Shown: positions 25,689 to 45,171 of the stretch, one piece after another
Numbering within the stretch: position 1 is the stretch's first letter
Layout: the number at the start of each line of letters is the position of its first letter
NCBI RefSeq assembly: GCF_009826935.1
Contig: NZ_WUMN01000005.1
Coordinates: 124,001 to 188,000 of the forward strand
Reading direction: 5' to 3'
Length of the DNA stretch: 64,000 nt
Origin: Flavobacterium sp. Sd200
GTDB lineage: Bacteria > Bacteroidota > Bacteroidia > Flavobacteriales > Flavobacteriaceae
Notes under the pieces: generated by a model
The model's database searches: none
What the model was told of the DNA's origin: nothing
The model's input: only the letters and a program-made list of their open reading frames with translations
Translations under genes and position numbers: made by a program

Positions 25689-25704
25689 CCCTGTCGCAAC
25701 AGGG
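25689..25704 (-). terminator. Terminator hairpin beside the tRNA fragment
   Basis: CCCTGT (25689-25694), loop CGCA, ACAGGG (25699-25704). A T run follows on both strands. It occupies the position that the tRNA terminator has at the intact tRNA-Met (44.5 kb), but its stem sequence differs. Confidence 0.6.
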
Positions 25705-25720
25705 GTTTTGTATCTTCCTG

Positions 25721-25763
25721 TAGCGAAGACGGGAGTCGAACCCGTAATCTAAGAGGTTGAATT
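25721..25763 (-). pseudogene. tRNA 3'-end remnant (T arm and acceptor strand only)
   Basis: On the minus strand this reads a complete T arm (ACGGG-TTCGACT-CCCGT) followed by CTTCGCT and the discriminator A. That segment is 24/25 identical to the 3' end of the intact tRNA-Met at 44557-44630. Weaker similarity continues into a variable-loop and anticodon-arm-like stretch (ATTCAACC). No 5' half, D arm or partner acceptor strand is present upstream. The remnant lies 8 bases past the HEPN gene stop codon, as expected of an attachment site left by an integrated element. Confidence 0.65.
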
Positions 25764-26817: not shown

Positions 26818-27453
26818 TTATAGTTTAACCACCCCATCATTAACAATTACATAGACCATATTATCCTCAGTAGGTTGCATCACATGAGTCCCTGTAAATT
26901 CTCCAAAAGCAGGTAATATCATTTGATTTTCGCTCATAAAAAAACAAGGCAGTTTGAGTACCTGCCTACCCATGCCCCGTAGCCTAACTGCCGGGTGAAT
27001 ATGCCCACAAAACGTGAAATAACCCTCGCGAGTTTCTGGGTGGTGGGTAAGCAGGAAACCGTCTTCGGTAGCCCATTCGCTAACGGTTTTAATGCCCAGT
27101 GCTTCATATTTTTTGGGATTAATGATGTCGTGGTTACCAGCAATCAGTACAATAGGCAGGTTGGTTTTGCTTACCCAATTGCTAAACAAATCCCATTCAA
27201 GGTTAAGCGAACTGTGAAAGAGGTCGCCTAAAAAGCAAATGCTCTCAGGATTAAAATAGGCTATTACTTCATCAAGCTTAAGAAAATTTTTATGAATAAC
27301 ACCACTTGGTATGGCCGCCCCGAACTTACGGAAATGGCTTACCTTGCCCAAATGTGCATCGCTGATAAGCAACAAACGCCGTTGTACCCAGTACACCGCA
27401 CCGGAGCAATGCAGGATAAAGTTTTGGTCTTTTATATTTATTTCAAATGTCAT
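26818..27453 (-). CDS. pdeM: Ligase-associated DNA damage response endonuclease PdeM (metallophosphoesterase)
   Basis: The 211-residue calcineurin-like phosphoesterase has all metal-binding blocks in order. They are LLISDAHLGK (Asp32, His34), CFLGDLFHS, LIAGNHDI, LLTHHP and FTFCGHIHP. Proteins of this length with the start FEINIKDQNFILHCSGAVYW are PdeM/Mpe, a manganese-dependent DNA endonuclease. It is normally encoded with an Lhr-like helicase, an ATP-dependent ligase and a beta-lactamase-fold nuclease. Those three genes follow upstream on the same strand, separated here by a small plus-strand yqaE-like gene. The role is repair of damaged DNA ends. Confidence 0.9.
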   Translation of the reverse strand: MTFEINIKDQNFILHCSGAVYWVQRRLLLISDAHLGKVSHFRKFGAAIPSGVIHKNFLKLDEVIAYFNPESICFLGDLFHSSLNLEWDLFSNWVSKTNLPIVLIAGNHDIINPKKYEALGIKTVSEWATEDGFLLTHHPETREGYFTFCGHIHPAVRLRGMGRQVLKLPCFFMSENQMILPAFGEFTGTHVMQPTEDNMVYVIVNDGVVKL

Positions 27454-27753: not shown

Positions 27754-30213
27754 TCATTTCATATAACTCGCCGTCATCTTTTTTATCCTTTCTGCCAGCG
27801 TTTCGCTTGACAAACGTTCCCGTAACCTGTCAGTAATAATCGGGAAGCTGAACGGTGTAGGCTTTTCACATTGTTTCCAAACCACTTCCTGGTGTTGTAT
27901 CCGTTCTAATGCAAGGAGCAAACGCCCTTCTTCAAGCTGGTGTTCAAAGGTTTCTCTATACGCCTGCTGAAACAAAAGGTTGTTTGGCTCATAGTCCCTA
28001 AATACCTCAAAAATAAGCTGGCTGCCACTTTGCAGGTGCTTGGCCTTAACCACCTTACCCGGATAGCCTGTAAAAACCAATCCTGCTATAACCGCAATAT
28101 CCCTAAACTTGCGCCGTGCCATTTCGGTAGCATTAAGGCTGTGCTGTAAATCAGTGTGCAGGTGTGTGGGTGTAAAAAGGTCGTTATCCAAAACCTGTTG
28201 CATGTCTATTTCCTTGTCGCTGAGCAGTTCAAAACCATAGTCGTTGTATGCTAAAGAAAACGTGATGGGTGTAAGCAAACTAATGCGATACGCCATTAAG
28301 CTCGCAAGGGCTTCATGCACATAGCGGCCTTCAAACGGATAAAAAATGGCATGGTAGCCCTCCCGGGTTTTGAAGGTTTCTATAAGAAACTGGCTGTCGT
28401 TAGGCACAATACTCTCTTTGCGCTGCCGCGTAAAAACGGGTAACAACGCTTTCAGTTCAGGTGTTTGTGTATCGGTATTGGCAGAATACAATTCTTCCCG
28501 AAGCAGTTCGCTCATTTGTGCCGAAAGGGTAAGTCGCCCGCCCATCCAGCTGGCGTGTTTTGCCTTAGCCCCGGGGCTGGCAAGGCGCACCAGTACTTCC
28601 ATATTTTTTACACGGTAAAGTTCCAGTTTTCGCCCGGCAAAAATAAACGTATCGCCGGGGTTCAGTTTTGATATAAACCATTCCTCTATAGAACCAATAT
28701 AACCGCCTCCCATAAACTTCACATTCAAAACCCCATCGCTTACAATGGTGCCTATCTGCATACGGTGGCGCAGCGCAATGCCGCGATTGTTGACTTTAAA
28801 CTTACCATCGGCCTCGATTTCAACTTTTTTATATTCATCATAGGCCTGCAGGCTCTGGCTACCGCGGGTTATAAAGTTCAGGCAAAACTGCCAGTCGGCA
28901 TCGGTCATGGCCTGATAGCAGAACGTACCCTGCACTTCTTTAAAAATATCTTTAGGGTAAAAGCCATCGCTCACAGCAAGCGTTACAAGGTACTGCACCA
29001 ACACATCCCAACTGTTAAGGTATGGCACGCGGTCTTCTACTACGGTATCTTTTACCGCACGCCGCAATGCCGAGGCTTCAACCAACTCAATAGCGTGCGT
29101 GGCTAAAAAGTGTACGTTGCTTTCCTGTCCCGGGCGGTGGCCGCTACGCCCGGCACGCTGTAAAAAACGTGCCACGCCTTTGGGGCCACCCACCTGTATA
29201 ACCGTTTCTACCGGAGCGAAATCTACTCCCAAATCCAGGCTGCTGGTACATACTACGGCTTTAAGGCGCTCATCGCGAATGGCCTGTTCTACCCAAAGGC
29301 GGGTTTCTTTAGCAATGCTGCCATGGTGCATGGCAATTTCGCCTGCAAATTCAGGGTGCTTTTCCAGTAGCGCCTGATACCAAATTTCGCACGCACCGCG
29401 CACATTGGTAAACACCAGTGTGGTTTTGCTTTTTTTAATAATGCCTGCCACTTCATCCACAAGGTGCAGCCCCATGTGCCCGCGCCAGGGGTAGGCATCC
29501 ATTTTTTCGGGGATGATGGAATGGACATTTATTTTTTTGTTGATGTGCGCCCGAATGAGCACACTGTTTTCCAATGCTTCCGATCGCGGTCCCAGCAGCA
29601 CTTCCATGGCCTGCTGCAAATTACCTATGGTTGCCGAAATGCCCCAAATGCGCATTTTTGGAGCAACGGTTTTCAGCCGACTCAAAGCCAGTTCTACCTG
29701 AACGCCGCGCTTGGTGCCCAGCAGTTCGTGCCACTCGTCTATAATAATCGCGCCACAGGTTTTAAATACACCAGCATAGTCTTTAGAAGCCAGCATAAGC
29801 TGCATACTTTCGGGAGTGGTAATAAGCAGGTCAGGGATTGTCTTTTTTTGTTTCGCCCTGTCTGCTGCCGTTGTATCGCCTGTACGGATACCCACGGTGA
29901 GTTGCGTGCCAAGTTCATCAGCAACACGTTGTGCGGCCTGTTTTATTTCTACCGATAATGCGCGCAGCGGCGTAATCCAAATGGCTTTCAGGCCGGGTTT
30001 GTGTTTGGTTTTATAGTCGGGATTGTTTTTAATGTAGTTCAGCACCACCGGAAACCACAGTGCATAGGTTTTACCACTCCCCGTAGGAGCGTTAAGCAGG
30101 CCATTTTTGCCCTGCAAAAAAGCCGTCCACGTTTGCTGCTGAAATGGGAAAGGCCTCCAGCCACGGGCCGTAAACCAATTTTGCGCTATGTTGAAAAGTT
30201 GTTCCCTGTTCAT
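27754..30213 (-). CDS. Ligase-associated DNA damage response DEXH-box helicase (Lhr-like)
   Basis: This 819-residue superfamily 2 helicase has Walker A NAPTGSGKT (Lys48), motif Ia WITPLRALS, DEXH box IIIDEWHELLGTKRG, motif III GISATIG, and RecA2 motifs LVFTNVRG, VCTSSLDLGVDF and VGGPKGVARFLQRAGRSGHR. These match the Lhr-core helicases, 3'-5' translocating ATPases. The C-terminal winged-helix and beta-barrel parts fit the 800-residue Lhr-core rather than full Lhr. In this gene set it acts with the ligase, PdeM and exonuclease in DNA end repair. The gap of 106 bases to the ligase gene holds a palindromic repeat, so cotranscription is likely but not certain. Confidence 0.92.
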   Translation of the reverse strand: MNREQLFNIAQNWFTARGWRPFPFQQQTWTAFLQGKNGLLNAPTGSGKTYALWFPVVLNYIKNNPDYKTKHKPGLKAIWITPLRALSVEIKQAAQRVADELGTQLTVGIRTGDTTAADRAKQKKTIPDLLITTPESMQLMLASKDYAGVFKTCGAIIIDEWHELLGTKRGVQVELALSRLKTVAPKMRIWGISATIGNLQQAMEVLLGPRSEALENSVLIRAHINKKINVHSIIPEKMDAYPWRGHMGLHLVDEVAGIIKKSKTTLVFTNVRGACEIWYQALLEKHPEFAGEIAMHHGSIAKETRLWVEQAIRDERLKAVVCTSSLDLGVDFAPVETVIQVGGPKGVARFLQRAGRSGHRPGQESNVHFLATHAIELVEASALRRAVKDTVVEDRVPYLNSWDVLVQYLVTLAVSDGFYPKDIFKEVQGTFCYQAMTDADWQFCLNFITRGSQSLQAYDEYKKVEIEADGKFKVNNRGIALRHRMQIGTIVSDGVLNVKFMGGGYIGSIEEWFISKLNPGDTFIFAGRKLELYRVKNMEVLVRLASPGAKAKHASWMGGRLTLSAQMSELLREELYSANTDTQTPELKALLPVFTRQRKESIVPNDSQFLIETFKTREGYHAIFYPFEGRYVHEALASLMAYRISLLTPITFSLAYNDYGFELLSDKEIDMQQVLDNDLFTPTHLHTDLQHSLNATEMARRKFRDIAVIAGLVFTGYPGKVVKAKHLQSGSQLIFEVFRDYEPNNLLFQQAYRETFEHQLEEGRLLLALERIQHQEVVWKQCEKPTPFSFPIITDRLRERLSSETLAERIKKMTASYMK

Positions 30214-30231
30214 TTTTTAGTTTAAGGTTTC

Positions 30232-30313: not shown

Positions 30314-30319
30314 TATGAC

Positions 30320-31924
30320 TTATTTCGGTATCATCTCTTTCAAATCCTCTATGCTGTTTGCTTCTTCAATGGTTTTGTCATGGCGCCAGCGGAGGATACG
30401 TGGAAACCGAGTAGCCACACCGCTTTTATGCCTTCCGGAAAATGCTATGCCTTCAAACCCGATTTCAAAAACCAGCTTAGGGGTAACGCTGCGCACGGGT
30501 CCGAAACGCTCCAGTGTATTTTTCTTAATGTAATCGTCTACCATGCGAAACTCAGCATCGGTTAAACCGGAATAGGCTTTTGCGAAAGTTACAAGCTCGC
30601 GGGTGCCGTCTTCTTTATCTTCCCAAAGAGCAAAGGTATAATCGGTAAACAGGTTAGCACGGCGACCGCTGCCCCTCATGGCGTATGTAAGCACGGCATC
30701 GATACTAAAAGGGTCGAGTTTCCATTTCCACCAGTCGCCTTTTTTACGGCCTACACCATAAACCGAATCGTTCCGTTTAAACATAAGCCCCTCGCTGCGC
30801 AGTTCGCGTGCCTTTGCTTTTTCGTGCAAGGCGTGTTCCCAGTTATCAAGTTGTATTCTTTCAGATAGTTGCAATGGTAAAGCATAATCTTTTACGCTGT
30901 GGTACAGCTCTTCCAACAGTTCCCTACGTTCAATATACGGCAGGTTTCGGATGTCTCTCCCCTCCCACTCCAACAAATCATACGCGCGGATTATAACTGG
31001 AGTTTTTTTGAGCAATGCAGGAGTTACGGTCTTACGTCCAATGCGGGTTTGCAGGTCGTTAAACGAACCTATAGCATTATTAATCCAGGGCAGTATTTCT
31101 CCATCCATCACAGTACCATTTGGGATAACATTTAGAAAAGTGTTAAATTCCGGATACTTGTCCGTAACAAGTTCTTCGCCACGGCTCCATATAAACATTT
31201 CACCGTTGCGTATAATCGTTTGACTACGGATACCGTCCCATTTATGTTCGGCACTCCATTCGGTAACGTTGCCTAAATCCTGCGGTTCGCCCTCAACGGC
31301 ATGTGCAAGATAAAACGGGTAAGGGCGGCTCAGATTATCCTCCTCTTTTTCATTGAGCACCAAATCTTCAAAGCTAACGGTTGAGGGATTCCATTCACCC
31401 ATGAGCTTGTAGGCGAGTATATCTTCATTTACACCAGTAGCTTTGCCCAGTGCGCGGGTCATTAGATTTTGGCTTACGCCAATGCGGAAACTTCCGGTAA
31501 TGAGCTTGGTAAATACAAAACGTTCGTAATAATTCAGGGTGAGCCAGTTAGTATGCAGGTAGGCTTTTTTCTCCTCATCGGTTTTCTTCTTCAGGGTAAT
31601 CATTTCCTGTACAAACTCGGTAAGGGTTTTATCAGAATGATTTTTAGACGCAGGGATGACCAGGGCAATGGTTTCGGCAAGGTCGCCCACTATGTGGTAA
31701 CTGTCTTCAAACAGCCATAACGGAATATGGGCGAGTTCGGCAGCCCAAAGCCGTAATAGGTTGGTATTAATCGGGCGCGGTGGCCTGCGGTGCGACAGTA
31801 TGGCAATAGTCCATACCTTATCACTATTGCTTGCTGTGCGAAAGTATTGCGTAAGGGCATCGACCTTTACGTTTGTCTTGTTACTACTGTCTAACGTTTT
31901 TATAAGTTCGGCAAAGAGCTTCAT
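30320..31924 (-). CDS. ATP-dependent DNA ligase (ligase-associated repair operon)
   Basis: The 534-residue ligase has the nucleotidyl-transferase motif I AEHKWDGIR, with Lys228 as the AMP-accepting residue. Motif III VMDGEILPW, motif IV EGLMFKR and motif V WWKWKLDP follow. An N-terminal DNA-binding domain (about 1-200, MKLFAELIKTLD ... GEWNPS) and a C-terminal OB domain complete the usual LigB-type architecture of about 510-560 residues. It overlaps the exonuclease gene by 4 bases. In Bacteroidota this ligase is an addition to the NAD-dependent LigA and serves in repair rather than replication. Confidence 0.93.
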   Translation of the reverse strand: MKLFAELIKTLDSSNKTNVKVDALTQYFRTASNSDKVWTIAILSHRRPPRPINTNLLRLWAAELAHIPLWLFEDSYHIVGDLAETIALVIPASKNHSDKTLTEFVQEMITLKKKTDEEKKAYLHTNWLTLNYYERFVFTKLITGSFRIGVSQNLMTRALGKATGVNEDILAYKLMGEWNPSTVSFEDLVLNEKEEDNLSRPYPFYLAHAVEGEPQDLGNVTEWSAEHKWDGIRSQTIIRNGEMFIWSRGEELVTDKYPEFNTFLNVIPNGTVMDGEILPWINNAIGSFNDLQTRIGRKTVTPALLKKTPVIIRAYDLLEWEGRDIRNLPYIERRELLEELYHSVKDYALPLQLSERIQLDNWEHALHEKAKARELRSEGLMFKRNDSVYGVGRKKGDWWKWKLDPFSIDAVLTYAMRGSGRRANLFTDYTFALWEDKEDGTRELVTFAKAYSGLTDAEFRMVDDYIKKNTLERFGPVRSVTPKLVFEIGFEGIAFSGRHKSGVATRFPRILRWRHDKTIEEANSIEDLKEMIPK

Positions 31925-32958
31925 ACCACATCCCCTTCCTCCGAAACGGTTTCGGCTTCTTTATCGCTTTCGCCCTCATCGCCTTCATATTGGGTATGTT
32001 CGGTACGGGCGTCATAACCCAGCTCACGCAAATATGTACTGAAGATATCGCTGTAGCCGTGGGTACATATAATTTTTTCGGCACCGGTGGCTTGTATGCT
32101 TTCCAGCAGTCCTGCCCAGTCGCAATGGTCGCTCAGCACAAACCCCCGGTCTATGGCACGCCTGCGCCTTGCTCCGCGAAATGCCATCCATCCGCTGGCC
32201 GCCCCTGTAACATAAGGTGTCATTTTTCGTATCCACGGAGTGCCGTGCGCGCTGGGTGGTGCCAGTACAATGTTGCCCAGCAGGTCTTCTTTTTTAGTTT
32301 CGCGGGTTATAAGGGTGGTTTCGGGAAAATCCACCATTTGGCGGAGTATTTGCGTCATGTTCTCTACCGCGCCGTGGGTATATATTTTGCCTATAGATGG
32401 GTCGAGGTATTTAAGCAACCGTTGCGCTTTACCAAGGGTATAGCCAAAGAGTACCGATGTTTGCCCATCGGCTTTGTTTTGTGCCCACCAGTTATTTATG
32501 TCGTTCATTACCTCTGCCTGTGGCGTCCATTTAAAACAGGGCAGGCCAAAAGTATTTTCGGTAATAAAGGTGTGGCATTTTACCACTTCATATGCGGTAG
32601 AAATTCCGTCGTCTTCGGTTTTGTAATCGCCTGTAAATACCCACACTTCGCCTTTATATTCTACCCGAATTTGTGCGCTCCCTATAATATGCCCGGCAGG
32701 ATGAAAACTGAACGTAACCCCATTTATGGTAAAAGTTTCGCCCCATGCCTTGCCGCTAACGTTAATGTTGCCCAAGCGGTGTAGTATAATGGGCACGTTC
32801 ATGTGGTGGGTTATATAACTGCCATGCCCATAACGGGAGTGGTCGCTGTGCCCGTGGGTAATAATGGCTTTAGGCACTGCACGCCATGGGTCGAGGTACA
32901 CATCGGCCTGTGCGCAGTAAATGCCTTTATCGTTAAATGCCAGCAGGGGCTGTTTCAT
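31921..32958 (-). CDS. Ligase-associated exonuclease of the metallo-beta-lactamase/beta-CASP type
   Basis: This 345-residue protein has the metallo-beta-lactamase zinc motif ITHGHSDHSRYG (HxHxDH at His35-His40), VFTGDYKTED and the C-terminal block LSDHCDWAGLLE. The last about 20 residues are acidic. It belongs to the SNM1/Artemis-like nucleases found in ligase-associated repair sets, which degrade 5' DNA ends. It is the first gene of the operon and its stop overlaps the ligase start. Only 173 bases separate its start from the CRISPR array. In those bases lies the tRNA-derived repeat that I take as the island boundary. Confidence 0.9.
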   Translation of the reverse strand: MKQPLLAFNDKGIYCAQADVYLDPWRAVPKAIITHGHSDHSRYGHGSYITHHMNVPIILHRLGNINVSGKAWGETFTINGVTFSFHPAGHIIGSAQIRVEYKGEVWVFTGDYKTEDDGISTAYEVVKCHTFITENTFGLPCFKWTPQAEVMNDINNWWAQNKADGQTSVLFGYTLGKAQRLLKYLDPSIGKIYTHGAVENMTQILRQMVDFPETTLITRETKKEDLLGNIVLAPPSAHGTPWIRKMTPYVTGAASGWMAFRGARRRRAIDRGFVLSDHCDWAGLLESIQATGAEKIICTHGYSDIFSTYLRELGYDARTEHTQYEGDEGESDKEAETVSEEGDVV

Positions 32959-33077: not shown

Positions 33078-33118
33078 CCTTTCAGTTTCCTGAAAGGGGT
33101 TTACTACATTTTGTAGCG
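33078..33118. repeat. Left direct repeat: copy of the tRNA-Met terminator plus tRNA tip (candidate att site)
   Basis: 41 bases match 44521-44561 at 40/41 positions. The segment contains the terminator hairpin CCTTTCAG-TTTC-CTGAAAGG, the spacer TTTACTACATTTTGTAGCG and the last five bases of the tRNA acceptor strand (CGCTA on the minus strand). No tRNA is attached here. With the copy at the intact tRNA-Met it brackets the whole CRISPR-Cas locus. Confidence 0.7.
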
Positions 33119-33131
33119 TTAGCTAAACTGT

Positions 33132-36100
33132 ATCGTAAATTGCTTTCAAAAATTGTACTTTAGTAGATGATTCACAGGTGAAAGCAGCTTACGATGTAAA
33201 GCTTACACCTGTGAATTGCTTTCAAAAATTGTACTTTAGTAGATGATTCACAGGGTTATGCAGGTGGTCAAAACATCGTTAATGTTGTGAATTGCTTTCA
33301 AAAATTGTACTTTAGTAGATGATTCACAGGTTCTGTTAGCCATTTTATTTTTTCCATTATGTTGTGAATTGCTTTCAAAAATTGTACTTTAGTAGATGAT
33401 TCACAGGAAGCGGCCTCCGATTCTAAAAAAGCAATAGGTTGTGAATTGCTTTCAAAAATTGTACTTTAGTAGATGATTCACAGGTTCATTTTAGCCTTTT
33501 GATATTTTATGTATGTTGTGAATTGCTTTCAAAAATTGTACTTTAGTAGATGATTCACAGGACAGCCCACAGGAGTAGTTTTTCAGATGTTGTTGTGAAT
33601 TGCTTTCAAAAATTGTACTTTAGTAGATGATTCACAGGATATATGTTTGTTTTAGTGTCATCAGCAGGGTTGTGAATTGCTTTCAAAAATTGTACTTTAG
33701 TAGATGATTCACAGGTGCTGCTAAAAACACAGCCTAACCATCGTTGTTGTGAATTGCTTTCAAAAATTGTACTTTAGTAGATGATTCACAGGACATTATA
33801 ACTGAGGTGTTCCATAGAACGGGTTGTGAATTGCTTTCAAAAATTGTACTTTAGTAGATGATTCACAGGTCCTTGGCGGCCAATCGCTCCTGTTCAGCGG
33901 TTGTGAATTGCTTTCAAAAATTGTACTTTAGTAGATGATTCACAGGGTCGGGCTAAAAAAAGGAGCAAATACCTAAGTTGTGAATTGCTTTCAAAAATTG
34001 TACTTTAGTAGATGATTCACAGGCACAAAAAATACAATAACAAAATAAAATAAGTTGTGAATTGCTTTCAAAAATTGTACTTTAGTAGATGATTCACAGG
34101 AACGTACGTCAAATGTAGAGTTATTTTTTCGTTGTGAATTGCTTTCAAAAATTGTACTTTAGTAGATGATTCACAGGAAAAATCTAATCCTCTATCCCTA
34201 AGCTGTTGTTGTGAATTGCTTTCAAAAATTGTACTTTAGTAGATGATTCACAGGAGAGCGGGCAAAAAAGGAGCAAATCCTTAGGTTGTGAATTGCTTTC
34301 AAAAATTGTACTTTAGTAGATGATTCACAGGTCATTAACTGCTGTTTCATCGATTGATTGCGTTGTGAATTGCTTTCAAAAATTGTACTTTAGTAGATGA
34401 TTCACAGGACATTTCACGACCCGTCCTGCGTTGAACTCGTTGTGAATTGCTTTCAAAAATTGTACTTTAGTAGATGATTCACAGGGTGCGGTGTTCTGTT
34501 TAAAATAAATACTAAGTTGTGAATTGCTTTCAAAAATTGTACTTTAGTAGATGATTCACAGGGATAAGTTTTACTCAACTCATGCGCTTAGTGTTGTGAA
34601 TTGCTTTCAAAAATTGTACTTTAGTAGATGATTCACAGGACCGCCACACTACAATAAAAAAGTTTTTTTGTTGTGAATTGCTTTCAAAAATTGTACTTTA
34701 GTAGATGATTCACAGGGTGCTATACAGAACGGTACAGATGGTATTAGTTGTGAATTGCTTTCAAAAATTGTACTTTAGTAGATGATTCACAGGGCGCCCA
34801 TGCGCGTCTTCTGCAAAATTTCGTTGTGAATTGCTTTCAAAAATTGTACTTTAGTAGATGATTCACAGGGACCGCCACACTACAATAAAAAAGTTTTTTG
34901 TTGTGAATTGCTTTCAAAAATTGTACTTTAGTAGATGATTCACAGGAGCATTCGACAATGCTCTGTATTCGTTGCTGTTGTGAATTGCTTTCAAAAATTG
35001 TACTTTAGTAGATGATTCACAGGAGGTATTATCTCAACCCCTTTAACTGTTATGTTGTGAATTGCTTTCAAAAATTGTACTTTAGTAGATGATTCACAGG
35101 CGGTGCCAACCGTTTGCAAAGCCTTTAACAGTTGTGAATTGCTTTCAAAAATTGTACTTTAGTAGATGATTCACAGGAGTTTAAAGGTTCGGTATAAACA
35201 TGCTCTGGTTGTGAATTGCTTTCAAAAATTGTACTTTAGTAGATGATTCACAGGCAGACCAAGGCAGGTGTATCATGAATTTTGGTTGTGAATTGCTTTC
35301 AAAAATTGTACTTTAGTAGATGATTCACAGGGATGGCACAGTTCCCTTTGACATTGAACCCGTTGTGAATTGCTTTCAAAAATTGTACTTTAGTAGATGA
35401 TTCACAGGAGTGCTATTCTGTCTCCGTTTCTAAGTCTGGTTGTGAATTGCTTTCAAAAATTGTACTTTAGTAGATGATTCACAGGGCATATTCCGTATTT
35501 CCATATATCTCTTAGTTGTGAATTGCTTTCAAAAATTGTACTTTAGTAGATGATTCACAGGGAGATATGATATTATAGGAAGCGAAGATGTGTTGTGAAT
35601 TGCTTTCAAAAATTGTACTTTAGTAGATGATTCACAGGTATTGCCGGGGCTTATCACAAACCATCCTGTTGTGAATTGCTTTCAAAAATTGTACTTTAGT
35701 AGATGATTCACAGGCTACAGGAATTTGTGTAAGAAGGATGTTCAGTTGTGAATTGCTTTCAAAAATTGTACTTTAGTAGATGATTCACAGGTTCACTTCC
35801 TGAAACATCGTCACTAACTGCGTTGTGAATTGCTTTCAAAAATTGTACTTTAGTAGATGATTCACAGGCCGCCACACCACAATAAAAAAGTTTTTTTTGT
35901 TGTGAATTGCTTTCAAAAATTGTACTTTAGTAGATGATTCACAGGGGGATAAATCTGCAACCTCTAAGGAGGTTGGTTGTGAATTGCTTTCAAAAATTGT
36001 ACTTTAGTAGATGATTCACAGGCTTTAATTTGGTCAATTTCAGTTGCTAGGTGTTGTGAATTGCTTTCAAAAATTGTACTTTAGTAGATGATTCACAGGA

Positions 36101-38482
36101 AGCGTTGACAGACGCTAACGGGGATATAGGTTGTGAATTGCTTTCAAAAATTGTACTTTAGTAGATGATTCACAGGTATTTTTTGCAACCCAATCAAATG
36201 ACTTTTGTTGTGAATTGCTTTCAAAAATTGTACTTTAGTAGATGATTCACAGGGCAGCCATTACCAAGCCCCGAAAACGCGATGTTGTGAATTGCTTTCA
36301 AAAATTGTACTTTAGTAGATGATTCACAGGAGTAAATCCTCTGTTTTTGTCCTTGTGTCTGTTGTGAATTGCTTTCAAAAATTGTACTTTAGTAGATGAT
36401 TCACAGGTTGATGCTGAGGCTAACGACGGAGAGACTAGTTGTGAATTGCTTTCAAAAATTGTACTTTAGTAGATGATTCACAGGCAAAGTACACCTCCTG
36501 TATTTTCAGCGCCAGTTGTGAATTGCTTTCAAAAATTGTACTTTAGTAGATGATTCACAGGATTCCTGATGGAAAAGAAAACGAGTTTGAGGTTGTGAAT
36601 TGCTTTCAAAAATTGTACTTTAGTAGATGATTCACAGGCAAGTGAATGTTTACTATATTTACCTGTCTGTTGTGAATTGCTTTCAAAAATTGTACTTTAG
36701 TAGATGATTCACAGGGCAGTTGCTCAAATGGGTAGAAGCGTAGGTGTTGTGAATTGCTTTCAAAAATTGTACTTTAGTAGATGATTCACAGGTACTGCTT
36801 AATAATTCTATTTTTGAGGCTAGTTGTGAATTGCTTTCAAAAATTGTACTTTAGTAGATGATTCACAGGTATCATACTTCAAAAAGGTTAATTTGACTGG
36901 TTGTGAATTGCTTTCAAAAATTGTACTTTAGTAGATGATTCACAGGGGACATGAGGTGTATGACTTTAAGAACCCTGTTGTGAATTGCTTTCAAAAATTG
37001 TACTTTAGTAGATGATTCACAGGCCGCCCGACCTGTCTTTTGACGCCCTTTGGGTTGTGAATTGCTTTCAAAAATTGTACTTTAGTAGATGATTCACAGG
37101 GAAAGCCTTTAAAACAATCTAAAGCACTGCGTTGTGAATTGCTTTCAAAAATTGTACTTTAGTAGATGATTCACAGGTAATGCCGGCTATAGCAATGGCC
37201 GCTACTTGTTGTGAATTGCTTTCAAAAATTGTACTTTAGTAGATGATTCACAGGCCTTGTAGAAAAAAGGAATTAAGTGTTTTCGTTGTGAATTGCTTTC
37301 AAAAATTGTACTTTAGTAGATGATTCACAGGTACAACTGATACAACCACAGTCAGTGCAGGTTGTGAATTGCTTTCAAAAATTGTACTTTAGTAGATGAT
37401 TCACAGGTGTCTTGTCGTCTAATATATTGAAATACAGTTGTGAATTGCTTTCAAAAATTGTACTTTAGTAGATGATTCACAGGTTTTTTCTTATCTCCAA
37501 CACAGTTTGCGCTGTTGTGAATTGCTTTCAAAAATTGTACTTTAGTAGATGATTCACAGGTGTTCCCACTAATCATTTCTTGACCACTAGGTTGTGAATT
37601 GCTTTCAAAAATTGTACTTTAGTAGATGATTCACAGGCAGCGTTTGAGCTATATTTTTAATGCTGGTGTTGTGAATTGCTTTCAAAAATTGTACTTTAGT
37701 AGATGATTCACAGGGTTTATGACTACGATGATAACATTGACCTTGTTGTGAATTGCTTTCAAAAATTGTACTTTAGTAGATGATTCACAGGTACAACCCT
37801 GAGCACCTTGATAACTATGTCCGTTGTGAATTGCTTTCAAAAATTGTACTTTAGTAGATGATTCACAGGGCGTGCTGTTAATCCATGCAATAACCTCGGG
37901 TTGTGAATTGCTTTCAAAAATTGTACTTTAGTAGATGATTCACAGGTGCCAAAGCAATTAATTGATAACCCTTTTGGTTGTGAATTGCTTTCAAAAATTG
38001 TACTTTAGTAGATGATTCACAGGCTTAAATTCTGGATAACGCTCTTGTGAATGTTGTGAATTGCTTTCAAAAATTGTACTTTAGTAGATGATTCACAGGT
38101 ATTTTAGCATTGTGTTTGCCGATTGCAATGTTGTGAATTGCTTTCAAAAATTGTACTTTAGTAGATGATTCACAGGTATCGCTGGTCGGCTGTCACTCAG
38201 CGGCAGTTGTGAATTGCTTTCAAAAATTGTACTTTAGTAGATGATTCACAGGGCCATGGTCTGAGGGATCAGGTACAGCAGAGTTGTGAATTGCTTTCAA
38301 AAATTGTACTTTAGTAGATGATTCACAGGTAACGCTTATCAAGAGCTTTGTAGGCTACTGTTGTGAATTGCTTTCAAAAATTGTACTTTAGTAGATGATT
38401 CACAGGTTTGTTTTTTTCGCAATTTCTAACCGGATGTTGTGAATTGCTTTCAAAAATTGTACTTTAGTAGATGATTCACAGG
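33132..38482 (+). CRISPR. Type II-C CRISPR array, 70 repeats and 69 spacers
   Basis: I counted repeats one by one: 70 copies of a 47-base repeat starting GTTGTGAATTGCTTTC and ending GATGATTCACAGG. The 69 spacers are 29-31 bases, mostly 30. I noted no mismatch in the repeats from the third onward; repeats 1 and 2 (left end) carry three and two changes at their outer end. The crRNA strand is taken as +: the repeat begins GTTGT as in other type II systems, and the tracrRNA anti-repeat near 44.36 kb is complementary to it. Inside each repeat, TTG (positions 2-4), 20 bases, then TACTTTAG (25-32) is one base from the Bacteroidota promoter consensus. Each unit could therefore start its own transcript, as known for other II-C arrays. 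Confidence 0.97.
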
Positions 38483-38589
38483 ATACCCGACATAAAAAAC
38501 TGGTATCCTGTCATTTACACTTTTAATTAGAATTAAAAAAAGCACTCTTTTTTGTTCTTCACTTTATATACAATCCCAAATTTTAAATC
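38483..38589. promoter_or_regulatory. AT-rich array-flanking region, candidate adaptation leader
   Basis: These 107 bases lie between the last, perfect repeat and the cas2 stop codon. GGATACC (38481-38487) and GGTATCC (38502-38508) form a 7-bp inverted repeat that begins inside the repeat end. The rest is AT-rich. Since the degenerate repeats are at the opposite end, new spacers are probably added here. The hairpin might alternatively end array transcription. Confidence 0.35.
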
Positions 38590-38943
<354 letters not shown>

Positions 38944-39852
38944 TCATACTGTAATTTCAAATACCGGATACAGTATTTTCCTGCTTATGCCTGCGTAACA
39001 TTCATACAGGCTGTTTGTAGTGCGGCTCATGGCCACCATAAGTGGGCTGCGCTTTCCTTCTAAAACCACGTCCATAGCAGGTATGGTTAACAGTTCGGCC
39101 TTTAGCTGTTGCGTCAACTCTTCATAGCCCCCACCTCTATGCGTAATATCATATACTAGAGCATCTACATAAATACGGTAGGGTTCCATAATATCATCTG
39201 CAAGGCAAAAGGAGTTGTATTTATTGCTGTGAAAAATCCCCACCGATGGTAACAAACCCGTACTTATCAGTGCACGGGCAGTTACGGCCCTCAATATGGC
39301 ATAACCATAATTTAGCAATCCGTTTGGGGCTATACCCTTTTGGTTACGGCTAAACCCTTCAACATGATTAAAAAGGCTCTGAAAATACAGCGCTGCAGCA
39401 ATAGCCTCGTGGTTTTCGGTATCTCCACTTTTTACCTCATCAGCCCAGCGCATTAGTTTTCTTGAATCTTTATTCCTTGCTGATAGATGGAATGCCTGAT
39501 TACTTATCTTCGCACTAATGGTTTGCTGCCAGAGGTTCTTTTTAAGCGGCACACTGGAGTTAAGCTGATGCCTGAATCGCTCGGTCTGTTCGCTATGCCC
39601 CGTTAAGGGTTGTAAGAGGGCATTAGGTAAATGTTGCTTATCACAAGTTATTATAGAGGTTTTATTTTCGATGAGCTTACAGATAAGCCCATTAGTAAGG
39701 GTAATCTGCGGATGTTCCAGCACAAGATAACCCAAATCTTCAATAGGGATCGTAACCGGTGGCTTATCTTCATCAGGAAAATTAACTACCAGTTGCTCAT
39801 TCTTAGTATTTAGATAAGCCGGGTTGGCAAAAAAGAGCGTACGTTTTACCAT
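38944..39852 (-). CDS. cas1: CRISPR adaptation integrase Cas1 (type II)
   Basis: The 302-residue Cas1 has its active-site residues in place: Glu149 in GDTENHEAIAAALYF, His208 in GIFHSNKYNSF and Glu223 in LADDIMEPYR. The motif GLLNYGYAILRAVTARAL is the conserved helix of the family. Spacing of the three residues is essentially that of other type II Cas1 proteins. It integrates new spacers with Cas2. The start lies 11 bases after the cas9 stop, so cas9-cas1-cas2 form one transcription unit. Confidence 0.97.
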   Translation of the reverse strand: MVKRTLFFANPAYLNTKNEQLVVNFPDEDKPPVTIPIEDLGYLVLEHPQITLTNGLICKLIENKTSIITCDKQHLPNALLQPLTGHSEQTERFRHQLNSSVPLKKNLWQQTISAKISNQAFHLSARNKDSRKLMRWADEVKSGDTENHEAIAAALYFQSLFNHVEGFSRNQKGIAPNGLLNYGYAILRAVTARALISTGLLPSVGIFHSNKYNSFCLADDIMEPYRIYVDALVYDITHRGGGYEELTQQLKAELLTIPAMDVVLEGKRSPLMVAMSRTTNSLYECYAGISRKILYPVFEITV

Positions 39853-39863
39853 AATTATCTTTA

Positions 39864-42800
39864 TTAATATTCACCAACTTGCACTATATCCCCTAAGTGA
39901 TTAATTCTGACTTTTACAATATCTTTAAACGGTGTAAGCCCCTTTATTGACTTGTAAGCAATACCTTGAAGTTCTTTAGTATCTATAACAGATGTTTCTA
40001 AATGATGCCTGAATACATATTCACGTACCACGGCGGTTCCATAAATTAATCTTGATAATTTCTGAACCCTAAAAAGATTAGGACTTATAAGATTTTTATT
40101 TTCATGACTTAGAAGATTCAATTCTGAAGGGTTAAAACCCGTTTCCTCATTTGGAAATACAAAATATTCATTCTGCTTCATTGTAAATAATAACCGCCAT
40201 CCTAAATGAGAGTTGTAATTTTTATCAACTACAGAAATCTTCTGTTTAGCCCTGGTTACAGCTTCAAAAAAAGAAACTATTCTGTCCTGAAGTTTACCTG
40301 ATTCATCAATATATATAGCCACATGGTGGTTACTGCCTGTGCTTATAAAATCTACAGGAATAGGATTGTTATTTTTGTCTAAAATATCAATACCCAAATG
40401 ATCTTTCTTAGTATGCAACGCCCCGGCGTTCTTTATACCGCTTATCTTTACCCGTTTTATAGAAATGCCTTTTTCTTTATTAAGCCATATCGGATTTTTC
40501 TCTATATCAGTAAAGGCCTTCTTTGGATCATTACCAAACTCCTCAAGCCTCTGTAGCATGATCCGTTTTATACCTTCATCAAGTATTTTTTCAATGCTTT
40601 TAAGGTCCTTGAAATTTTCCGGAGTAATGTCTTTCCTTATAGAATAATCCTCCTCAAGCCATATTAGTTTTACCTTTTCAGGAACTCCCAGCGTTTTTTC
40701 ACTACTAATATAAAGCGGGTTTTTAGACAAGGCATTTTTTCCGCCAAATGCTTTCTTAGGGTCGTTGTCGTTTTCTGCCAATCGTTGTAAAAGCAGTTTC
40801 TTATATTGGGGGTTACTTACCATTTTAATGGTTGCTTCATCAAACTTAGGGCCTATCTTCTCTTCCTTGCCGTTGTAATATCTATACTTTCCATATACAG
40901 TTTCATTATGCAACTGACCGCGTGGGGTAAGCTCCGGTTTTACCAGTTCACCTTTAGCGGTTTTTATATGGTTTCGGTTTATAGTTACCACTTTGTTCTT
41001 TGCCTTATGCGATATCAGTACGCTTTCAAGGTGCGCTTTAGCCTGTTCCCTGAATTTCGGCATGGGTAAGTTAAACACACGCTTACTGTTATCGCGGTCC
41101 TCTCTCACTCTGTGGGTTTCTTTTTGCTCAATGCCAATGATATGGGCATGGTCTTTATGTCCTTCACTCTTTGCATTAAGATGGTTAAGGTATTGTATAA
41201 AACTCTGTTTGGTAAAGGCTACAGTTAGGGCGTCCATGGCATGATGGCGGTGGTCGTTACGTTTAGTCCAGTCTTTAATTACTTCTTTAAGCGAACCGTC
41301 TTTCTTTTCTAAGAACTCCGTAAGGCCTTGGGCTTTGTACTTTTCAAAATTCAGTTCCTGCATTATGTTAATAAGCCCCCAGTCTTCGCGGAGCCTGTCG
41401 GTAATCTGGCCCGAAGTAGACACTACCACACGAGTGATATCATACAGCATATTCTTGGCCTTTTTGGCAATATACTGGCTTTCGCGCAGGTCACGGGCTA
41501 TAAACCCATCCCTTATTTCGCTTTCTTTTTTTAACAATTTCTGGTATTTAGCTTTAGAAATACCCTCCTCTTTTTCTTTCCCTTTTACCCCGAAGTCAAA
41601 AAGCATTTTTACCCTCGCTTCATATTCTGCGAGACCTTCAGCGCCGTATTTACTGTCTATATAATCGTGAGCTGTACGGTTACCTTTTTCAAGATTATCT
41701 TTCTTGAATACAAGCGTTTTATTAGAAAAACTATCATCAAACAACCTCGATTGCGGCAGGATATGGTCTACATCGGTAAGGGAACTAAAAATCATTTCGG
41801 GTCTTATATATGTGTTTGTATACAAATCTTTATAGCCATTGTTTTTAAGTTCGCTATAAAGCTTGTAGCGTACAATATCATTACGCACAGGGTTTTTAAT
41901 GCCAAATTTCGACTGCAGCACCTTAACTATCTTATCATGCTCTGCCTTGGCGCTGTTGATGTTGCTGCTAAGTTCTGCACGTTCCTTAGCATTCTTTTTC
42001 AGTTCGCGTGCCAGCTCTATACGCACCTCATCAAATTTAAAGTCGCGTGACTGCCCGGCGGATTCAAGCTTATCATTTTCGGTATCTATTAATGTATTTA
42101 CCACGTTAACCATTTGGTTCAAAATCTTTTCTACCACAGGGTTACGCAGGCTGTTTTTTTTGAGTAATTCAAGTTTCCCTTTCAGCGGGCGGTTTGCAAT
42201 CTCATCGCGCGTAAGCGAAGCCGCAGAATGATTGTAACCAGCATTGGCACATGCGGTGCTATAATTGTTATCTTTGATATATGGGTATATCTTCCGCATA
42301 GCCTTAGTACTCAGGCTGCCATAATCATCACTCAGCGGAATGTTTACCAATATCTTTGCGTGCTCCGGTTTAAAACCAAATTTTTCACACAATTGCTTTT
42401 TCAGGCCAATGTTATCGTTGCCGTAGGTAAAAATTTCGTCTTCAGAATACTTTTTGGTATCGTCTTCCGCCGAATACAATAAATGCCAAAGCCGGTACTG
42501 CGGTTGCTGCTCAAATGCCTTGCCGTCAAGCTCCGCATCAAAATTGAGGATACCTGTATCAATACCCAGTATTTCAAACATGGGTACTATGGCTTCCTTA
42601 ATTTGTGCGGGGGGTAACGGTATATCTTCAGGCTTTATAACATCGGCATCAGGTTGTTTAAAGGTGCCGCGCACATCATACCCCTCTATGTCGAGTATTT
42701 TCATATATGCTTCATAAAATGAACGCGCTGTCCTGTTACCTTCAAGCATATCGTAATTAGCCTCCCACTGCTTTGGCTTATAGCCTAAAAACGCAATGGC

Positions 42801-44168
42801 AGCGGCAGCCGAAAGATTGCCTTTAAGGTTGAGTTCGTCAAACAGCTGCTGCTTGGCCGCTTCATCAGGTATATACTTTTCTTTGGTTTCCTTATTACGG
42901 AACTCCAAGTTTTGTAACACCTGCCATATTTTGAATTCCTGGAATAGCGGCGACGATTTTGGCGCTACCTTAAGCCCTATGGTTTGTTTTACGGTTTTGC
43001 CATCTTTAATTCGCTCTACCTCTTTACTCTCAAACTCACAAAAACTTACCAGCCCTTTTTGTGATTTTAGCTTACGCTGGTAAAAAATAACAATATCCCT
43101 TACCTCATCTTTCAATGCCTCTGTAAGTTCGGGGTGGTATTGTGCCTGTGTTTGCCAAATGATTTCAAACTCATCAAGATAGTCTTGGCGGTAAAACACC
43201 TGCCCCTTAAGGCGCGTATGTGGGTTATCGGCTAGTTGCTTATACAGGTACTGCCCAACCGTTTGTTTATTAAAGTACAGCTCTTTACTGCGGTCGCTTA
43301 TAGCCCCAAGGTAACCGCTGGAACTGCTAAGGTTCGCATTTATTTCAGTCACCACATAAGCGGCCTCCTCTTTAGCCAGCTGCTTTTCTACTGCTTCGGC
43401 CCGCCATTTGTAGGCCTGCAGGCGCTTTTCTTCCCGGGTGCCTTTGTTTTCGGCTGTATTAAAATTATAGTTACCCCAAAACGCTGCCGATGTAACACGT
43501 TGCCCTTTGCCCTCTATATTTTTCCTGAAGGCATCGGTAAAAATCTCCGGGTAAAACTGCTTTTGGAATTCCCAAACCTTGTCAAACTCGGCCTGCAAAT
43601 CCGACCGATAAAAGTCAGGCACCTGTTTTTTACCTTCTTTAAGCAATATATAAGTAAGCTGACCCGGCGTAAGCCCCTCGTCATACAGGCGTTTGGCTAT
43701 TCCCATGCCGTCTACCAGTTGCCCTTCTTCTTCGTTTTTTGCACGGCGGCTGCTTTTATAACCACGCTTCTTGTTTATGGCAAGCAGCACACGGGCAAGT
43801 TCATCTTTTTCTACACGCTGTGTAGCAGCCTGGCTACGCAACATAAAGGTAGTATGTGTAGTATTCTTACCATCTTCGGCGAGCAAAGCATTATCATCTA
43901 TAATATTTGCTTTCTGCAAAACATTTATAAGGTTATTGCGGCGGTCTTTAAAACGGCTAAGGTTGCGGCGGGCAGAACGTTTTAAGGTCCTGTCGGCATT
44001 TACCGATACCGGTCTGCCTTTTTCAAAATTCGTCTGTTCATCGGTAGTAAGCGGGTTTACCCTTACTCCAAGCTTTTGTATAGACGATTGCTCCGGCGTT
44101 TCGCCCTCTACAATATATGCGAAACCGATAGAAGTTGTGCCGAGGTCCAGACCTAAAATATTTTTCAT
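39864..44168 (-). CDS. cas9: RNA-guided DNA endonuclease Cas9, subtype II-C
   Basis: The 1434-residue protein has all catalytic elements intact. RuvC-I is MKNILGLDLGTTSIGFAY (Asp8), followed by an Arg-rich bridge helix (RTLKRSARRNLSRFKDRRNN). RuvC-II has Glu718 in VRIELARELKKNAKE. The HNH nuclease carries DVDHILPQSRLFDDSFSNK (His802). RuvC-III is HRHHAMDALTVAF (His975/976, Asp979). The C-terminal part would hold the PAM-interacting domain. Its length is at the long end of II-C Cas9 but common in Bacteroidota. With crRNA and tracrRNA it cuts invading DNA. It heads the cas9-cas1-cas2 operon, and the tracrRNA gene is divergent in the upstream region. Nothing suggests inactivation. Confidence 0.98.
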   Translation of the reverse strand: MKNILGLDLGTTSIGFAYIVEGETPEQSSIQKLGVRVNPLTTDEQTNFEKGRPVSVNADRTLKRSARRNLSRFKDRRNNLINVLQKANIIDDNALLAEDGKNTTHTTFMLRSQAATQRVEKDELARVLLAINKKRGYKSSRRAKNEEEGQLVDGMGIAKRLYDEGLTPGQLTYILLKEGKKQVPDFYRSDLQAEFDKVWEFQKQFYPEIFTDAFRKNIEGKGQRVTSAAFWGNYNFNTAENKGTREEKRLQAYKWRAEAVEKQLAKEEAAYVVTEINANLSSSSGYLGAISDRSKELYFNKQTVGQYLYKQLADNPHTRLKGQVFYRQDYLDEFEIIWQTQAQYHPELTEALKDEVRDIVIFYQRKLKSQKGLVSFCEFESKEVERIKDGKTVKQTIGLKVAPKSSPLFQEFKIWQVLQNLEFRNKETKEKYIPDEAAKQQLFDELNLKGNLSAAAAIAFLGYKPKQWEANYDMLEGNRTARSFYEAYMKILDIEGYDVRGTFKQPDADVIKPEDIPLPPAQIKEAIVPMFEILGIDTGILNFDAELDGKAFEQQPQYRLWHLLYSAEDDTKKYSEDEIFTYGNDNIGLKKQLCEKFGFKPEHAKILVNIPLSDDYGSLSTKAMRKIYPYIKDNNYSTACANAGYNHSAASLTRDEIANRPLKGKLELLKKNSLRNPVVEKILNQMVNVVNTLIDTENDKLESAGQSRDFKFDEVRIELARELKKNAKERAELSSNINSAKAEHDKIVKVLQSKFGIKNPVRNDIVRYKLYSELKNNGYKDLYTNTYIRPEMIFSSLTDVDHILPQSRLFDDSFSNKTLVFKKDNLEKGNRTAHDYIDSKYGAEGLAEYEARVKMLFDFGVKGKEKEEGISKAKYQKLLKKESEIRDGFIARDLRESQYIAKKAKNMLYDITRVVVSTSGQITDRLREDWGLINIMQELNFEKYKAQGLTEFLEKKDGSLKEVIKDWTKRNDHRHHAMDALTVAFTKQSFIQYLNHLNAKSEGHKDHAHIIGIEQKETHRVREDRDNSKRVFNLPMPKFREQAKAHLESVLISHKAKNKVVTINRNHIKTAKGELVKPELTPRGQLHNETVYGKYRYYNGKEEKIGPKFDEATIKMVSNPQYKKLLLQRLAENDNDPKKAFGGKNALSKNPLYISSEKTLGVPEKVKLIWLEEDYSIRKDITPENFKDLKSIEKILDEGIKRIMLQRLEEFGNDPKKAFTDIEKNPIWLNKEKGISIKRVKISGIKNAGALHTKKDHLGIDILDKNNNPIPVDFISTGSNHHVAIYIDESGKLQDRIVSFFEAVTRAKQKISVVDKNYNSHLGWRLLFTMKQNEYFVFPNEETGFNPSELNLLSHENKNLISPNLFRVQKLSRLIYGTAVVREYVFRHHLETSVIDTKELQGIAYKSIKGLTPFKDIVKVRINHLGDIVQVGEY

Positions 44169-44354
44169 GTATAATTACTTTGTTTATCAATATTAAAATA
44201 AATCAAAAAAGAATTACAAAAAATAAGGAAATCCTCATATTAAGCATTTTATTTTTCTCCGAAAGTTAAAAATTAAATACTTCTTTAACATCCCTATTAA
44301 TGGGTATTTTACTACATGATTGTTGTATGTATAAAATATTTAATTACCTTGCAG

Positions 44355-44435
44355 TACAATTTGAAAGCAATTCACAATAAGGATTATTCCGTTGTGAGAA
44401 CATTTAGTGCCTCGACTACCTTCGGGGCTTTTTTT
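44355..44435 (+). ncRNA. tracrRNA
   Basis: The stretch TACAATTTGAAAGCAATTC plus ACAA (44355-44377) is the reverse complement of bases 2-26 of the CRISPR repeat, except that two bases of a T run are missing. It is followed by a small stem (GGA-TTAT-TCC, 44381-44390), then CGTTGTGAGAACATTTA, and a terminator hairpin with seven T. A possible promoter is TTG (44323), 19 bases, TACCTTG (44345), which would start the RNA at the beginning of the anti-repeat. The size would be about 80 bases. Start point uncertain; identity well supported. Confidence 0.88.
44409..44435 (+). terminator. tracrRNA terminator
   Basis: GCCTCGA (44409-44415) pairs with TCGGGGC (44422-44428) over 7 bp, with one T-G pair, followed by TTTTTTT. 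It fixes the tracrRNA strand as +. Confidence 0.85.
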
Positions 44436-44519
44436 ATGCCCTAAATTTAAGGATACCAACCATTGAAACACAATAAACTGTGTACCGTTAAATCAAAAAA
44501 ACATAATAAAAACAAAAAA

Positions 44520-44541
44520 CCCTTTCAGTTTCCTGAAAGGG
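44520..44541 (-). terminator. tRNA-Met terminator
   Basis: CCCTTTCAG (44520-44528), tetraloop (GAAA on the minus strand), CTGAAAGGG (44533-44541): a 9-bp perfect stem followed by a T run on the minus strand, 15 bases past the tRNA end. Confidence 0.88.
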
Positions 44542-44561
44542 TTTTACTACATTTTGTAGCG
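44521..44561. repeat. Right direct repeat at the intact tRNA-Met (candidate att site)
   Basis: This is the partner of 33078-33118 with one mismatch (T for G in the run after the hairpin). It includes the tRNA terminator and the final bases of the acceptor strand. The distance between the two copies, 11.4 kb, is filled by the complete CRISPR-Cas locus. Confidence 0.7.
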
Positions 44562-44630
44562 AAGACGGGAGTTGAACCCGTGACCTCAGGGTTATGAATC
44601 CTGCGCTCTAACCGACTGAGCTACCTCGCC
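44557..44630 (-). tRNA. tRNA-Met (anticodon CAT)
   Basis: 74 bases fold as a full cloverleaf on the minus strand. The acceptor is GGCGAGG/CTTCGCT, the D arm GCTC/GAGC and the anticodon arm CAGGA-TTCATAA-CCCTG with CAT. The variable loop is AGGTC, the T arm ACGGG-TTCAACT-CCCGT and the discriminator A. CCA is not encoded. CAT could also be an Ile tRNA with lysidine, but the acceptor and arms look like elongator Met of Bacteroidota. A promoter and terminator flank it. Its 3' end is the apparent insertion site of the CRISPR island. Confidence 0.93.
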
Positions 44631-44694: not shown

Positions 44695-44778
44695 ACATTT
44701 TTTTACAAAAAAAATTATTTTACTAAATGCTTTTTTTTGAAAGGTAATTATTATATATTTCCAAAAATTTTTACACCA

Positions 44779-45171
44779 ATGGACGAAAAAATTAAATACG
44801 AACTTGAATTTCCGATAACTTCATCGCCACAACTTCTATATCAATATATTTCTACTCCATCGGGCTTATCTGAATGGTTTGCCGATAATGTTAATTCACG
44901 TGGAGAGTTCTTTACTTTTATATGGGATGATGCAGAGGAAAAAGCCAGGCTGTCTTCTAAAAAAAGTGGCGAAAAAGTTAAGTTCCGTTGGATTGATGAG
45001 CAGAACAATGATGGCGATTATTATTTTGAGTTACGTATCCTTGTAGACGAAATTACTAAAGACGTATCGTTAATGGTAGTTGATTTTGCTGAGGCAAAAG
45101 ATCTGAGCGAATCAAAACAGTTATGGGAAAACCAGATATCTGATCTAAAGCATGTTTTAGGTTCTGTTTAA
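44779..45171 (+). CDS. START-like domain protein
   Basis: This 130-residue protein has the SRPBCC/START-like pattern of a small helix-grip fold: MDEKIKYELEFPITSSPQLL, then STPSGLSEWFADNV, KVKFRWID and a long C-terminal helix. It is widespread in Bacteroidota as a single-domain protein of this size and is related to AHSA1-type domains. The ligand is unknown. I chose the ATG at 44779 because the family starts at MDEK and the upstream extension has only a TTG start in an AT-rich region. It stands alone, with a terminator directly after it. Confidence 0.85.
   Translation: MDEKIKYELEFPITSSPQLLYQYISTPSGLSEWFADNVNSRGEFFTFIWDDAEEKARLSSKKSGEKVKFRWIDEQNNDGDYYFELRILVDEITKDVSLMVVDFAEAKDLSESKQLWENQISDLKHVLGSV

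Follow-up and report, generated by a model that had tools for sequence, protein, structure and literature searches.

Under the Islander principle, an element recombines into the 3′ end of a transfer RNA (tRNA) gene and the old end is displaced (PMC4383910). In Weeksellaceae, the 3′ end of tRNA-Met-CAT is the attachment site (attB) of ICECleSHZ29 and of five related Type I integrative and conjugative elements (ICEs), with a 17-bp repeat, and this tRNA end is published as an ICE attachment site in Chryseobacterium (PMC12561888). Clustered regularly interspaced short palindromic repeats (CRISPR)-Cas systems have also been described at this gene: in Vibrio natriegens a 30-kb region adjoining tRNA-Met holds a type II-B system, and in V. 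vulnificus a I-F system lies on an island next to this gene (PMC6360697). The locus considered here is a type II-C CRISPR-Cas locus in a 64-kb stretch of Flavobacterium sp. Sd200 (the window), part of contig C28 (346,053 bases) in a genome of 4,528,530 bases and 32 contigs. It lies beside tRNA-Met between two copies of the tRNA tip and terminator (R and M), and a third, more tRNA-like copy (L) lies further out. We consider it probable that the three copies record a two-layer accretion at a tRNA-Met hotspot, forming an island of 18.9 kb. Below, G with a number denotes a genome (G000 is the window's own) and L with a number a locus.

CRISPR islands beside tRNA-Met are already known in Vibrio, and the island in the window is ordinary in kind; of interest are the two-layer structure proposed here and the integrase-less CRISPR layer. 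The island resembles published tDNA (tRNA gene) islands in its intact tRNA with a displaced same-strand 3′ fragment at the far end and in the tandem array at one tRNA, and differs from them in that no integrase lies inside and the inner copy, M, holds six tRNA nucleotides (PMC4383910). The Islander filter would reject it because no integrase gene was found inside, and on that criterion we do not class it as an active, self-integrating tDNA island. It shares the tRNA gene end used with ICECleSHZ29, which, unlike the window island, is a 75-kb conjugative element with an integrase and a circular form (PMC12561888); the word CRISPR is absent from the main text of that paper. The Vibrio systems likewise sit on islands beside tRNA-Met, but they belong to another phylum and another subtype, and the II-B region has three integrases (PMC6360697). 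CampyICE1 of Campylobacter also places a type II-C Cas9 on an integrative element, although it is degenerate, with a sole Cas9, on an ICE of 70-129 kb (PMC8743540). The 10K island of Riemerella anatipestifer, a relative, is similarly small and at a tRNA gene; it has a 53-bp attachment (att) sequence and was shown to integrate and excise, whereas its site is tRNA-Arg and its integrase its own (PMC6764341). Among the open-access literature matches listed, we found no report of the tRNA-Met site in Flavobacterium, and the available portions of PMC8694125 (an ICE at tRNA-Glu) and PMC5395568 (F. columnare) contain nothing on tRNA-Met.

Two copies of the tRNA-Met tip and the locus between them

The features of the inner part of the island are:
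44556..44630, minus strand: intact tRNA-Met(CAT), the presumed integration target (ARAGORN; beside the START gene in 20/20 near relatives)
44521..44561, minus strand: R, right copy of the tRNA-Met tip (CGCTAC) plus intrinsic terminator (repeat search and fold)
33078..33118, minus strand: M, left copy of tip plus terminator (40/41 to R, sharp break 5′ of CGCTAC)
44362..44448, plus strand: trans-activating CRISPR RNA (tracrRNA) region (anti-repeat from ~44360; hairpin and T-run at ~44409-44438; 94% over 87 nt with L189)
39864..44168, minus strand: cas9, 1434 aa (TIGR01865)
38944..39852, minus strand: cas1, type II (TIGR03639)
38590..38937, minus strand: cas2 (TIGR01573)
33132..38482, plus strand: CRISPR array, 70 repeats of 47 nt, 68 of them exact (strand taken from anti-repeat pairing)

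R and M are 40/41 identical on the same strand, and dinucleotide shuffles of the window predict no such match by chance. With flanks the likeness is 91% over 56 nt, and it is 46/48 over the span from tRNA position 70 to 42 nt beyond the tRNA. The R/M sequence occurs at only two places in the genome when up to 3 mismatches are allowed, and the next-best 48-mer in the 346-kb contig reaches 30/48; a chance repeat is ruled out by these three results. As the sole tRNA that ARAGORN finds in the window is the tRNA-Met(CAT) at 44556-44630, the tRNA part common to R and M is six nucleotides, CGCTAC. The remainder of both copies is the intrinsic terminator of tRNA-Met, with a fold of -18.9 kcal/mol (z -5.2) in R and of -14.2 kcal/mol (z -3.3) in M. 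The original prediction for this stretch had described the pair as the tRNA-Met acceptor tip plus terminator, with the right copy belonging to the intact tRNA gene. This description holds: repeat search, genome search and shuffles confirm the pair, the tip amounts to the last 6 nt of the tRNA, and the right copy overlaps the ARAGORN gene.

That M is instead an independent terminator, or a chance match unrelated to tRNA-Met, is extremely improbable. Terminators in the style AAACCCTT...AAGGGTTTTTT are common to the tRNA-Met genes of many relatives, which would favour such an origin; against it stand the 40/41 identity including six tRNA nucleotides, the two genome copies and the low next-best score, and the 46/48 match with its tRNA tip excludes the unrelated left-hand terminator that the original prediction had allowed for. 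A search of 398 genomes of the genus for the tip-plus-terminator pattern, and of 60 genomes for the short terminator stem, returned matches in the window's own genome only. A decayed full-length tRNA half at M is ruled out, as its 5′ flank has no residual similarity; the score of that flank is equalled by 16964/20000 random 30-mers.

Between M and R we found the tracrRNA region, cas9, cas1, cas2 and the array, and no other cargo. Gene, profile and array searches agree on this content and on the absence of an integrase, both as predicted. The set, without csn2 or cas4, is type II-C by gene content, a call that rests on there being no leftover open reading frame (ORF) of at least 80 aa except antisense to cas9, no separate csn2 or cas4 model having been run. 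The tracrRNA region that is 94% alike over 87 nt belongs to genome G174. The degenerate end of the array is 13 bp from M, and the conserved tracrRNA block stops ~72 bp short of 44521, or 57 bp short of where the 56-nt repeat ends.

A third copy and the outer island

Beyond M, the window contains:
25719..25745, minus strand: L, tRNA-Met T-arm and acceptor 3′ strand, the proposed outer island edge (26/27 identical)
25676..25718, minus strand: hairpin or terminator-like stretch after L (fold; unlike that of R and M)
25765..26448, minus strand: weakly HEPN-like ORF adjoining L (Pfam HEPN, E 0.0037)
26821..27453, minus strand: PdeM endonuclease (TIGR04123)
27754..30213, minus strand: ligase-associated DEXH helicase (TIGR04121)
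30320..31924, minus strand: ATP-dependent DNA ligase, same operon as the exonuclease (TIGR04120)
31921..32958, minus strand: ligase-associated DNA damage response exonuclease (TIGR04122)
44737..45171, plus strand: START-domain gene, a chromosomal anchor and not part of the island (PF19569)

L, which the original prediction missed, lies 7.3 kb beyond M and matches tRNA positions 50-76 at 26/27 on the same strand in a scan of 168 kb 3′ of the tRNA; it is the sole further copy of the T-arm and acceptor in the genome. The 17-bp core of ICECleSHZ29 is exact at 44554-44570 and 16/17 at 25718-25734, in L; it is exact in 15/60 of the tRNA-Met loci surveyed below. The hairpin after L has a folding energy of -12 kcal/mol (z -3.1; 2/200 shuffles as good) and is unlike R's, a pattern also seen in the islands of G024 and G238. 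L thus looks like the displaced piece of tRNA that typically marks the distal end of an island. The intact tRNA (44630) and L (25719) would then delimit 18.9 kb containing the CRISPR locus, the repair operon and the HEPN-like ORF, and the signature of a tRNA-bounded island, an intact tRNA and a displaced same-strand 3′ fragment with the island between them, is present. No integrase is found among the island genes. The HEPN match of the ORF next to L is 17.8 bits, below the cut-off of 22, and the ORF has no NCBIfam match. The ligase-associated repair genes (26821-32958) have a guanine-plus-cytosine content of 42-50%, against 38.8% for the window.

The earlier claim that the moved unit has its exact edges at the 41-bp pair is therefore not supported: L, further out, encloses the exonuclease-ligase-helicase-PdeM operon too. 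The broader claim, that the CRISPR locus is a discrete island at tRNA-Met, fares better: the repeats, the hotspot and the Cas9 conflict described below support it, and what changes is that the island appears larger and layered. A possible but doubtful alternative, the one originally proposed, is that a single element mobilised in trans comprises only the CRISPR-Cas cassette (11.4 kb from M to R), L then being an unrelated older scar. Nothing else was found between M and R, whose 46/48 likeness contrasts with the greater decay of L, and a relative of the integrases at tRNA-Met lies elsewhere in the genome by another tRNA-Met(CAT); such a cassette nevertheless has no recombinase inside, no examined relative has the same cassette with the same ends, and 20 other cas loci examined do not adjoin a tRNA-Met gene.

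The tRNA-Met site and Cas9 among relatives

The site was surveyed at 61 tRNA-Met loci (60 relatives and the window). Nine were missed by the first search pattern and 8 of these were recovered with ARAGORN; L310 (G284), where no tRNA was found, was dropped, leaving 60. Twenty near loci were the nearest by START protein, with G304 taken in place of G066 (short contig), and the other 40 were picked by hand with long contigs favoured (39 from the START listing, plus G284). The 59 relatives are a non-random sample because of this hand-picking, and some (L303, L304) are close kin.

tRNA-Met adjoins the START gene in 20/20 near relatives, which makes that gene a good anchor, and the genes 3′ of tRNA-Met differ among most of the 20; none of these relatives has the CRISPR-Cas locus beside tRNA-Met. 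Same-strand copies of the tRNA 3′ half, its terminator or both occur in 7/59 relatives (8/60 with the window) within 18.9 kb 3′ of the tRNA, a scan that was shorter where less flank was at hand and in which the window's L, at the very end of the stretch, was counted separately. Opposite-strand, reversed and complemented controls gave 0/60 loci each. Longer stretches revealed two tandem tRNA-Met copies in G238, at 12.9 and 33.5 kb 3′ of the tRNA, and one each in G024 (23.4 kb) and G304 (24.5 kb); the repeats in these three genomes are att-like, 44-88 bp long, and an integrase-like gene lies next to the tRNA in each. By tblastn, one integrase family is found 3′ of tRNA-Met in 5/59 relatives, and a sixth has a fragment of it; L178 also has an integrase fragment close to the tRNA (E 1.7e-7), which fell below the survey cut and was not counted. 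The copies in relatives show all stages of decay, and in several the terminator lies within the repeat. ARAGORN reports a single tRNA-Met gene in 28/28 loci scanned. The general premise of the original prediction, that tRNA 3′ ends serve as attachment sites, is thus borne out for this gene, whose 3′ end is used repeatedly in the genus as well as by the published Chryseobacterium ICEs.

At L302, a terminator-only repeat (45/45) at 6096-6140 nt 3′ of tRNA-Met begins exactly after the tRNA end and resembles M; the genes between the L302 repeats look like enzymes, judging from sequence. In the window's own genome, L318 (G000:C1, ~622.4-623.7 kb) encodes an integrase 54% identical to that of G024, ~55 bp 3′ of another tRNA-Met(CAT), which in our reading is the initiator tRNA. 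The hairpin before this integrase resembles the ones found next to related integrases in G024, L303 and L304.

Cargo at the site was scanned for part of the relatives' ORFs. L292 (G077) is a small defence island, with two displaced fragments around a resolvase fragment and AbiH and AbiJ-type genes within 0-10.8 kb 3′ of tRNA-Met. The cargo of G304 includes HerA-type, PDC-M62A/PtuA-like, LmuA-like and AbiEii proteins, and that of L307 is non-defence (a pfkB kinase and a sensor hybrid). PADLOC was given 4 ORFs from L292, 6 from L307, 6 from G304 and 3 from G238, leaving out G024, L275, L276, L300 and L302; it returned one weak match for L307, to a sensor-kinase-like protein, and no match for the three G238 ORFs.

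In a tree of 21 Cas9 proteins, the window groups with G174, G228, G215 and G284 (support 1.000), whereas in a tree of the START protein and an aminotransferase it groups with G238 (support 0.991). The closest Cas9 proteins (62-68% identity) are those of G174, G228, G284 and G215, of which G228, G284 and G215 are the most distant of 20 by START and aminotransferase; over 20 comparisons, identities to the window for Cas9 and for the two chromosomal proteins are anticorrelated (rho -0.54). This comparison covers Cas9 carriers only, with two linked chromosomal genes standing for the species tree in place of a genome tree, and the final tree leaves out G292, G171, G304 and G196 (broken or more distant). 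Because the two trees conflict, Cas9 was probably acquired horizontally, as far as these sequences indicate.

A second, different II-C locus, with a Cas9 55% identical, lies 33.5-40.9 kb 3′ of tRNA-Met in G238 (L201, L238, L239). It begins ~280 bp past the second tandem tRNA-Met fragment, with a degenerate array end facing that fragment. Two II-C loci (window and G238) thus lie within ~41 kb 3′ of tRNA-Met among 22 carriers, defined as having a Cas9 at no less than 50% identity and including the window; this count is post hoc and weak, and we do not lean on the proximity because many drafts split the two over different contigs. The idea that II-C CRISPR loci as a rule lie at a tRNA-Met gene is ruled out by 0/20 cas loci, over 15-19.9 kb of flank.

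Proposed assembly of the island and its significance

The two-layer accretion that we favour would have begun with an older element ending at L, which brought in or enclosed the ligase-associated repair operon. A CRISPR-Cas cassette would later have entered at the tRNA tip, so that tip and terminator were duplicated as R and M and the older cargo came to lie further out. In the proposed mechanism, a tyrosine recombinase would recombine the element with the 3′ end of the tRNA; the new end and terminator would come from the element, and the old end would be displaced. The integrase may since have been lost, or may have acted in trans. L is taken as the older scar and R/M as the trace of the later CRISPR entry, R and M being more alike and L more decayed. 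The ends of the tracrRNA and of the array close to the R/M repeats are consistent with this, as is a repair operon away from the neighbour common to 6/18 relatives. We infer the order of events, the recombinase, the donor and the status of M as a true att scar.

Several observations weigh against this account. The likeness of M and R ends sharply 5′ of CGCTAC and fades 3′ of the terminator. M, with only six tRNA nucleotides, has no tRNA 3′ half, unlike most of the copies in relatives. The sharp start of M would follow from a crossover in the final bases of the tRNA; it would also follow from illegitimate recombination with the tRNA as anchor. In the latter case, incoming DNA carrying tRNA-Met, terminator and CRISPR would have been joined non-homologously 5′ of CGCTAC in a homology-facilitated event with no integrase. 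We think this unlikely. The sharp 5′ break of M and the similar terminator-only duplicate at L302 speak for it, yet both sharp breaks lie 6 nt or less from the tRNA 3′ end, a place at which site-specific recombination operates too, and att-like copies recur at the tRNA-Met site.

On the same side of the balance, the match at L extends only weakly towards the anticodon loop (58/20000 random 30-mers as good). Of the three integrase-like proteins beside tRNA-Met, one is above the Phage_integrase Pfam cut-off of 27.1 and two, at 24.4 and 27.0, are just below it. No PF00589 recombinase is encoded on contig C28, and the 8 matches in the genome are all on other contigs; serine recombinases were not searched by family in this genome. 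A tRNA-Met gene lies beside none of the 20 other cas loci within the 15-19.9 kb searched, one of which has tRNA-Phe, and the evidence does not assign genes to one step or the other. tRNA-Met lies in the available flank of 0/80 exonuclease loci (for 11/80 this flank covers <10 kb upstream), and an exonuclease gene 3′ of tRNA-Met at 0/20 near loci (7-15 kb); among the relatives examined, the nearest has an exonuclease 87% identical. The CRISPR-free junction of exonuclease and tRNA-Met that had been predicted was accordingly not found in either set, and on the same counts we reject the idea that the exonuclease gene was originally next to tRNA-Met. Finally, in the near relatives G312 and G213 a search of ~115 kb on the 3′ side of the tRNA found no gene with a match of at least 50% identity on contig C28, so that a rearrangement is possible too.

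The surroundings of the repair operon bear on this last point. The operon stays together (PdeM in 67/80 exonuclease loci) in varying surroundings, and an ammonium transporter is its neighbour in 6/18 relatives compared. As the window's genome has that transporter on a different contig, the operon probably occupies a derived position here; this agrees with membership of the island and also with a rearrangement. Over ~115 kb 3′ of the tRNA, G238 and G024 have matches only to START-side genes, G238 having its own cas genes as well; at ~90-115 kb these correspond to window contig genes 51-63 kb on the START side, hinting at an inversion around the tRNA-Met region. Nevertheless, a chromosomal rearrangement that brought the repair operon, together with its left flank, next to the tRNA-Met region, making M and L remnants of a former duplicate tRNA-Met gene, seems to us very unlikely. 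The G312 and G213 results and the position of the operon elsewhere in relatives favour it; M and L, however, are on the strand of the tRNA, as displaced fragments are, the hairpin after L differs from R's as in the G024 and G238 islands, and the 28/28 loci scanned have one tRNA-Met gene only.

Under the two-layer accretion, a complete II-C locus whose tRNA-derived scars have been mapped belongs to a hotspot where two relatives carry phage-defence genes (AbiH, AbiJ, AbiEii and HerA-type). A more speculative and rather unlikely extension is that the 11.4-kb II-C locus moves as a passive, integrase-less unit at the tRNA-Met tip and terminator, using the integrases of other elements in trans, so that Flavobacterium swaps CRISPR systems there; touching on this, a different II-C locus is present in G238, which among the 21 Cas9 carriers is the window's partner by START and aminotransferase. 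With the edges corrected, a DNA-repair operon may have travelled with CRISPR in the unit that moved. With a II-C locus and defence genes at one hotspot, the turnover of whole immune systems becomes directly testable by strain comparison.

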